Notes under the pieces: model-generated
Seen by the model: the letters and a program-made list of their open reading frames with translations, nothing else
Database searches by the model: none
Told to the model about the DNA's origin: nothing
Assembly (NCBI GenBank): GCA_040218145.1
Contig: JAVJQK010000075.1
Location: 1-64,000 of the forward strand
Reading direction: 5' to 3'
From: Sandaracinaceae bacterium
GTDB lineage: Bacteria > Myxococcota_A > Polyangia > Polyangiales > Sandaracinaceae
Length of the DNA stretch: 64,000 nt
In this document: positions 46,810-47,809 of the stretch, one piece after another
Numbering within the stretch: position 1 is the first letter of the stretch
How the letters are laid out: the number at the start of each line of letters is the position of its first letter
Position numbers and translations under genes: made by a program

Positions 46810-47018
46810 GTGGGCCCCCCGCTCATAACACGGGGGGACGCTCGCCATCGCTTCCCCGCCCGCGCCCGGGCGAGGCTGCAGCCACCTCCCACCTGCCCCT
46901 GCCCCTGCCCCTGCCCGCGAGTCGGCTAGAAGACGGCACACTGGCCGCTCGAGCAAGTCGTCTCGATGCCCGTCGCGCACATCGAGAGCCGGGCATGGGC
47001 ACGGTCGAGGGCAAGGGG
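46810..47018. other. Upstream spacer of the antiporter, with G-quadruplex motif
   Basis: No gene. Four C-runs at 46896-46916 separated by TG mean four G-runs with two-base loops on the antiporter sense strand, about 87 bases before its start: a tight G-quadruplex motif. A looser G-rich stretch lies on the plus strand at 46991-47021. Confidence 0.6.
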
Positions 47019-47060
47019 CAGGCAGGCTGAAGAACGCTCGCGCTCTCTTCAGCCTGCCTG
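47019..47060. repeat. Perfect 15-bp inverted repeat
   Basis: CAGGCAGGCTGAAGA (47019-47033) and its exact complement (47046-47060) enclose a 12-base loop. It ends on the base where the larger palindrome begins. There is no T-tract on either strand, so it is not a typical intrinsic terminator. Confidence 0.85.
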
Positions 47061-47225
47061 CTAGTGCGGAGATCTGACCGGTAGAAGGGGAGATGGCGCT
47101 GGACCGGCGCTTCAGGGCAAGGCGCGACGACGAGTCGATGCACCGCATCGGCGAGGAGGAGCAACGCCGCCCTGGAGCGTCGGGTCAAGCCAGCTCCCTT
47201 CTACCGGGATGGATCTCGCACTAGC
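47060..47225. repeat. 166-bp near-palindrome, MITE-like or structured RNA
   Basis: The ends are GCTAGTGCG and CGCACTAGC, exact complements. Inward, GGTAGAAGGGGAG (left) faces CTCCCTTCTACC (right) and CTTCAGGGC faces GCCCTGGAG. The centre is GATGC-ACC-GCATC at 47137-47149, so the arms match, with mismatches, over the whole length and the centre is at the middle. It has no coding content. It ends nine bases before the start of the gene at 47234. It could be a miniature inverted-repeat element or a folded 5' leader. Confidence 0.75.
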
Positions 47226-47233
47226 GTGGACGA

Positions 47234-47809
47234 ATGATCGACGACGTCCGCCGCGCGCTCTCCGAGGAAGGCATGCTGCTCGTCCAGGACGCGACGCTGC
47301 CGAGCCTGGTGAGCCTCGTCGCAGGCGAGCCGGTGGCGGGCTCCTGGTGGGGGCACCCGAAGAGCGAGGCCATCTTCGCGACCCTCACCGCGATCGAGGA
47401 CGACCCGGACGTCGCGCGCTTCAAGCTGCTCGATGGCAAGGTGTGTCTCGTGCGCCGCCCCCTGTGGTCCGCGCTCGCGTGTATCGGCCGCGCGAAGGAG
47501 CCCTGGCAGATGGACGGGCTCAGCGCGTTCGCGGCCGCGCTCCTGGCGCGCGTGGACGCGGGCGAGCGGGTGCAGGAGACCGGGCCGCACGTGAAGGAGC
47601 TCGAGCGGCGGCTCCTCTGCGTCGGGGACCAGAAGCACGTCGAGACGGGCGAGCACCGGACCGAGCTGCTCGGCTGGAAGACCTTCGCCAAGGAGCACGA
47701 CGTGTCGCTGCGGCGCCGCTCGACGGCCAAGGCCAAGTCCGAGCTCGAGGCGATCCGCGATCGCTGGGCCGACGCGCGCGGCCGACGCGCCAAGCTGCCC
47801 TGGGGCTGA
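47234..47809 (+). CDS. Hypothetical protein
   Basis: A 191-aa soluble protein with good codon use for this genome. It has a central LVAGEPVAGSWWGHPKSEAI segment, a DDPDVARFKLLDGKVCLVRR strand pair and a basic, helical C-terminus. No family is recognised. The ATG lies nine bases after the 166-bp palindrome, so the palindrome must form its leader or hold its promoter; no clear ribosome site is seen. It ends six bases from the convergent regulator gene. Confidence 0.75.
   Translation: MIDDVRRALSEEGMLLVQDATLPSLVSLVAGEPVAGSWWGHPKSEAIFATLTAIEDDPDVARFKLLDGKVCLVRRPLWSALACIGRAKEPWQMDGLSAFAAALLARVDAGERVQETGPHVKELERRLLCVGDQKHVETGEHRTELLGWKTFAKEHDVSLRRRSTAKAKSELEAIRDRWADARGRRAKLPWG

Follow-up and report, generated by a model that had tools for sequence, protein, structure and literature searches.

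The closest published motif is MRSC-65-2, which the outline in its source describes as one long covarying stem with over 20,000 representatives in diverse phyla and dozens of copies per genome, and which was judged a mobile or repeat candidate, possibly acting as RNA or DNA (PMC11109978, 2024). The elements described here are of the same general sort, with a long covarying stem, a presence in many phyla and mobility. The UYCCGG repeat stated for MRSC-65-2, compared by description only, is found as the hexamer or its complement in 25 of our 97 elements, at scattered positions. Our motif set may be partly identical to MRSC-65-2.

RUP of Streptococcus pneumoniae is an IS630-Spn1-type miniature inverted-repeat element (MITE) and, like the present elements, is small, palindromic and non-autonomous, has IS630-like terminal repeats and would form a stem-loop if transcribed (PMC3049150). 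Unlike them, RUP belongs to one species group, and no tip module across families with different ends is reported for it. The BOX elements of S. pneumoniae are also mobile repeats with a folded, expressed and modular structure (PMC3049150), but their boxA, boxB and boxC modules have other sequences and do not form a tip shared across phyla. ERIC and Correia elements are likewise small and mobile, have inverted repeats and influence host transcripts, with RNase III processing in the Correia case (reviewed in PMC10969869); going by their descriptions, they differ in that no shared tip module is reported. The GTAG and CGTC REP families share with our elements multicopy palindromes and a conserved unpaired feature across phyla (PMC3733652). 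They are, however, 20-40 bp long with the tag at the stem foot and a RAYT link (GTAG), whereas the conserved feature here is the tip of 100-170 bp hairpins. REP/BIME repeats, which are hairpins of 20-40 bp carrying GTAG or CGTC at their base, were rejected for an element of 162 bp that has TA-flanked terminal inverted repeats and conservation at its tip; CGTC-REPs and intrastrand triplex motifs were considered and do not fit. A literature search returned no published mention of the motif sequence or its G.A mismatches. The feature is an IS630-type MITE like RUP, with a conserved, cross-phylum structured tip added.

The element and its copies

The window is the whole stretch of 64,000 nucleotides that was analysed, and the positions of its features are collected in Table 1. 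The first-pass annotation had described a near-palindrome at 47060-47225 with matching termini, matching inner blocks and a central GATGC-ACC-GCATC. All of these were found: the ends are GCTAGTGCG/CGCACTAGC, the inner blocks include the perfect pair CCGGTAGAAGGG/CCCTTCTACCGG at 47078-47089/47196-47207, and the centre is located at 47137-47149. The adjoining perfect inverted repeat, given as 15 bp within 47019-47060, is present, with arms of 16 bp at 47018-47033 and 47046-47061. Minimum-energy folding as RNA gave -116 kcal/mol (z -11.3) for the plus strand and -96.9 kcal/mol (z -7.3) for the minus strand. Both folds far exceed those of shuffled sequence and the plus strand is the stronger. The near-palindrome is real and above chance.

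Table 1. Positions of the element, its parts and the adjoining repeat in the window
Feature	Position	Strand	Evidence
Whole miniature inverted-repeat element, from TA to TA, each within CTAG	47062..47223 (162 bp including both TA)	+ (GA strand)	11 copies with sharp TA ends
Left TA (target duplication), within CTAG 47061-47064	47062..47063		TA in 11/11 copies
Right TA (target duplication), within CTAG 47221-47224	47222..47223		TA in 9/11 copies, CA in 2
Left terminal inverted repeat GTGC(A/G)GAGATC(C/T)GACCGGT	47064..47082	+	Sequence and copy alignment
Right terminal inverted repeat, reverse complement GTGCGAGATCCATCCCGG	47204..47221	-	Sequence and copy alignment
Conserved tip motif C-AA-GGCGC-GA-C-GA-C-GA-(tip)-GA-G-GA-G-GA-GC-AAC-GCC	47118..47169	+	Covariance model, 97-sequence alignment
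Tip hairpin, variable, GTCGATGC-ACC-GCATCGGC, within the motif	47134..47152	+	Covarying stem
Tandem G.A region, 5' side, GA-C-GA-C-GA	47126..47133	+	Near-invariant GA steps
Tandem G.A region, 3' side, GA-G-GA-G-GA	47153..47160	+	Near-invariant GA steps; S:S pairs swap C:G/G:C
Separate repeat family: GGGCAN hexamers, then 16-bp perfect hairpin ending GCTA(G)	47018..47061		17 further copies aligned

A nucleotide search of this genome (11.06 Mb, 148 contigs) found ten more near-full copies, 93-95% identical to the query, and pairwise identity across the eleven copies is 90-99%. Their TA boundaries commonly lie within CTAG, and the flanking sequences are unrelated from copy to copy. The element is thus short, multicopy and mobile, and it contains no internal transposase gene. 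The eleven copies and their boundaries bear out the earlier suggestion of a miniature inverted-repeat element that targets CTAG.

The window copy is inserted in the terminal CTAG of the neighbouring GGGCAN/hairpin repeat, which is why the two abut. Other copies of that repeat in the same genome end in GCTA(G) without the element and represent the empty target site. The second repeat family, including its run of GGGCAN hexamers, spans 46990-47062 of the window and recurs at least 17 times elsewhere in the genome. On another contig (L337, G000:C134:13910-13929), about 40 bp of the window family's left arm survive as a truncated remnant beside a gene.

The window gave no Rfam match above the gathering threshold, and nine motif loci compared with Rfam at a permissive E <= 5 gave nothing relevant. 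Retron repeats of the reverse-transcribed, msDNA-like kind are reportedly present in Nannocystis exedens. A myxobacterial host and a long, multicopy hairpin would suit such an origin, but TA duplications and IS630-like terminal repeats are unexpected of retron products and no Rfam match of any kind was found, so that we regard a retron as hardly credible here.

Neighboring genes

Ten bases separate the element from the ATG of the gene at 47234-47809, and it makes up the rest of the immediate upstream region. The gene encodes a 191-aa protein with no Pfam or NCBIfam match, whose ortholog in genome G004 is 47% identical. This ortholog aligns from residue 3, supporting the ATG. The first-pass annotation had offered, as its other reading, a folded leader RNA controlling this gene in cis. 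The element would indeed lie in the leader if the gene were transcribed from upstream, and the ortholog supports the start codon. However, the other ten copies and many relatives adjoin unrelated genes, at 5' and 3' ends and in either orientation, and the G004 ortholog has no such element within 300 bases upstream of its start. A cis-acting leader is therefore highly unlikely, and gene 47234 may be affected incidentally by the element. A promoter and terminator scan detected no promoter-like or terminator-like sites near the element.

At gene 3' ends, as called with a heuristic gene finder, the two orientations of the elements are about equal (43 versus 39), and the TAG of CTAG is often the stop codon of the neighboring gene. 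Regulation of host genes in cis would predict an orientation bias. None is seen, which points to the element's own life cycle.

Distribution of the tip motif

When the whole element was used for the proposed search of related genomes, distant matches were obtained, mainly to its centre. A covariance model was built from that centre and used to search the genome and its relatives. The consensus on the GA strand is C-AA-GG(C/A)GC-GA-S-GA-S-GA-(tip hairpin)-GA-S-GA-S-GA-GC-RAC-GC. At E <= 0.001 the model locates 42 instances of the motif in this genome, and relaxing the threshold to 0.1 raises this to 58; eleven of them are the window family. Several others are families with other ends, for example CTAGTCACCCGG and TAGAGAGTTGAACCG. 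The motif is present in 24 of the 56 relatives. A strict pattern matched 24 of 377 Myxococcota genomes, a count that includes some coding-repeat matches without a hairpin, versus a handful of matches to a reversed-pattern control in all.

The same tip is shared far beyond this group. A scan of one genome per species yielded at least 114 motif stretches, with about ten phyla or more among the matches listed, although some records are metagenome bins that may be misassigned taxonomically. The matches listed include Acidobacteria, Proteobacteria, Nitrospirae, Eisenbacteria, Elusimicrobia, Omnitrophica, Binatia, Gemmatimonadetes, Planctomycetes and Actinobacteria, among others, and cultured carriers include Lysobacter, Dokdonella (D. 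immobilis), Pseudoxanthomonas wuyuanensis and Paucibacter. Most motif elements with readable boundaries are flanked by CTAG/TA, even in families whose motif hairpin is off-centre. The motif was absent from viral contigs, and a search of plasmids with the Dokdonella element gave no copy.

Covariation and selection on one strand

In the 97-sequence alignment the GA positions are nearly invariant, partly due to the search pattern, and the GA steps are separated by single pairs, C:G or G:C, that switch together. Covariation scores 0.537, whereas shuffles reach 0.161 and slid controls stay under 0.1. Fitting the alignment to the model favors the structure, but the two controls fall far short of the observed value. 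The S:S pairs can be followed in 74 pattern-derived loci, in which these bases were left free. The first pair is CG in 51 loci, GC in 22 and TG in one, and the second is CG in 48, GC in 24 and unpaired in two, so that only 3 of 148 cells depart from C:G or G:C. The tip stem and the outer arms, which lie outside the search pattern, also covary.

The arms of 55 non-redundant families were inspected for mismatches on the GA strand. G.U-type mismatches number 217 and A.C-type 77, with 46 families leaning to G.U and three to A.C, and G.A mismatches number 231 versus 58 for C.T. If selection acted on double-stranded DNA only, G.T and A.C mismatches should be equal, since a G.T on one strand appears as an A.C on its complement. 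The asymmetry therefore indicates that one strand, the GA strand, is selected to fold. Base composition cannot produce the transition asymmetry (G.U versus A.C). Replication-linked mutation bias, given the motif orientation in the Binatia chromosome G409 discussed below, would be expected to push the opposite way. Selection on the single GA strand, in the arms as well as the tip, is a property of the element itself.

The strand-specific pairing also bears on common descent. The elements could be ordinary IS630-type MITEs that keep the tip from one ancestral MITE, without present function; stable hairpins are common in MITEs, and RUP is one of the IS630 type (PMC3049150). Yet the ends and arms of our families differ completely while the unpaired tip bases are nearly invariant and the pairs swap in concert, and the arms keep pairing on one strand only. 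Neutral descent predicts neither a constant tip with swapping pairs nor one-strand pairing, and we consider this explanation improbable.

With RNA energy parameters, the GA strand folds into the consensus for 90% of the inner pairs, versus 0.5-1.6% for the other strand or with DNA parameters. Because RNA parameters reproduce the fold and DNA parameters fail, RNA is favored over single-stranded DNA, although the DNA parameters may credit tandem G.A pairs with too little stability. An alternative modelled on REP/RAYT or integron attC hairpins has the element working as single-stranded DNA: its GA strand would fold during replication or transfer, and a DNA-binding protein or a single-strand transposase would read the tip. 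Strand-specific selection would be equally expected of such a molecule. In G409, where the motif strand is regionally biased, the GA strand is opposite the G-rich strand in 28 of 39 cases (p 0.009), which is suggestive of an orientation relative to replication. There is also a large regional strand bias in the Longimicrobiales chromosome G408, where the skew is too weak to judge such an orientation. On the other side, DNA energy parameters recover 1.3% of the inner pairs for the GA strand against the 90% with RNA parameters, and the ends and TA duplication are typical of a double-strand DDE transposon. The direction of the bias in G409 means that the lagging-strand template is spared the stable hairpin, which may be mere survivorship. 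We consider a single-stranded DNA function to be unlikely, though it deserves serious attention.

Probable transposase partner

One IS630 partner with the same ends as a motif MITE was found, in another genome. This Chiayiivirga IS630 element is 1189 bp long (NCBIfam IS630, E 1e-80) and ends in CTA-GTGTGGTGTTCCGCAA, compared with CTA-GTGTGGTGTCCCGCAA in the motif MITE; the ends and the TA target match almost exactly. Its interior is unrelated to the MITE and has no tip motif, indicating that IS630 transposition in itself can do without the motif. The left end of another IS630 element (L256) shows two mismatches in twenty positions against a motif MITE of a different genome. In the genome of the window, no autonomous element with the ends of the window family was found, the left-end search giving only the C134 remnant, and the one IS630 that it carries (C35) shows only partial similarity to the family at its ends. 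That an IS630-type transposase moves the class of motif MITEs is well supported by these end sequences, and such a transposase would presumably mobilize the window family.

Proposed mechanism and implications

The explanation that we prefer, and hold to be probable, is a non-autonomous IS630-type MITE with a selected, folded GA strand and a conserved tip module, most likely acting as RNA. Such a MITE, of the IS630 (Tc1/mariner-like) type, inserts at TA, preferably inside CTAG, duplicating the TA, and would be moved by an IS630-family transposase acting in trans. Its two arms form one long hairpin whose tip is a structured module common to MITEs with different ends. At a stage that matters for its function the element would exist as a folded single strand, most likely transcribed RNA, and a widely conserved protein may bind the hairpin RNA at the tip. 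This binding would serve the persistence or mobility of the element rather than regulation of the neighboring gene, since element orientation is indifferent to neighboring genes.

A more specific proposal, which we put forward tentatively, is that unrelated CTAG-targeting MITEs across many bacterial phyla have adopted an RNA module of tandem G.A steps and single swapping pairs, and that a conserved protein, from the host or the transposon, recognizes it. MITEs are usually regarded as passive products of deletion that require nothing beyond transposase ends. If true, an adopted RNA module read by a protein would mean that very small DNA transposons depend on RNA in their life cycle. The ends vary freely while the folded tip and the one-strand pairing are kept across phyla, which suggests a function in single-stranded form. 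The tip motif also provides a handle for locating such elements in many genomes.

Other arrangements of motif elements

The Longimicrobiales chromosome G408 carries head-to-tail tandem arrays of motif elements at three loci (L332, L333, L334), with units of 171, 249 and 174 bp in 3-5 copies that are near identical within an array. Long open frames enclose motif elements at four loci (L133, L088, L091, L054); composition is coding-like on either side of the element, and the frame in the GA sense continues through it. A second motif hairpin occurs nearby at L153, L154, L176, L182 and L184 and at the Acidobacteria loci L137, L142 and L198. Some of these second hairpins are degenerate and in opposite orientation, as if the elements were paired.
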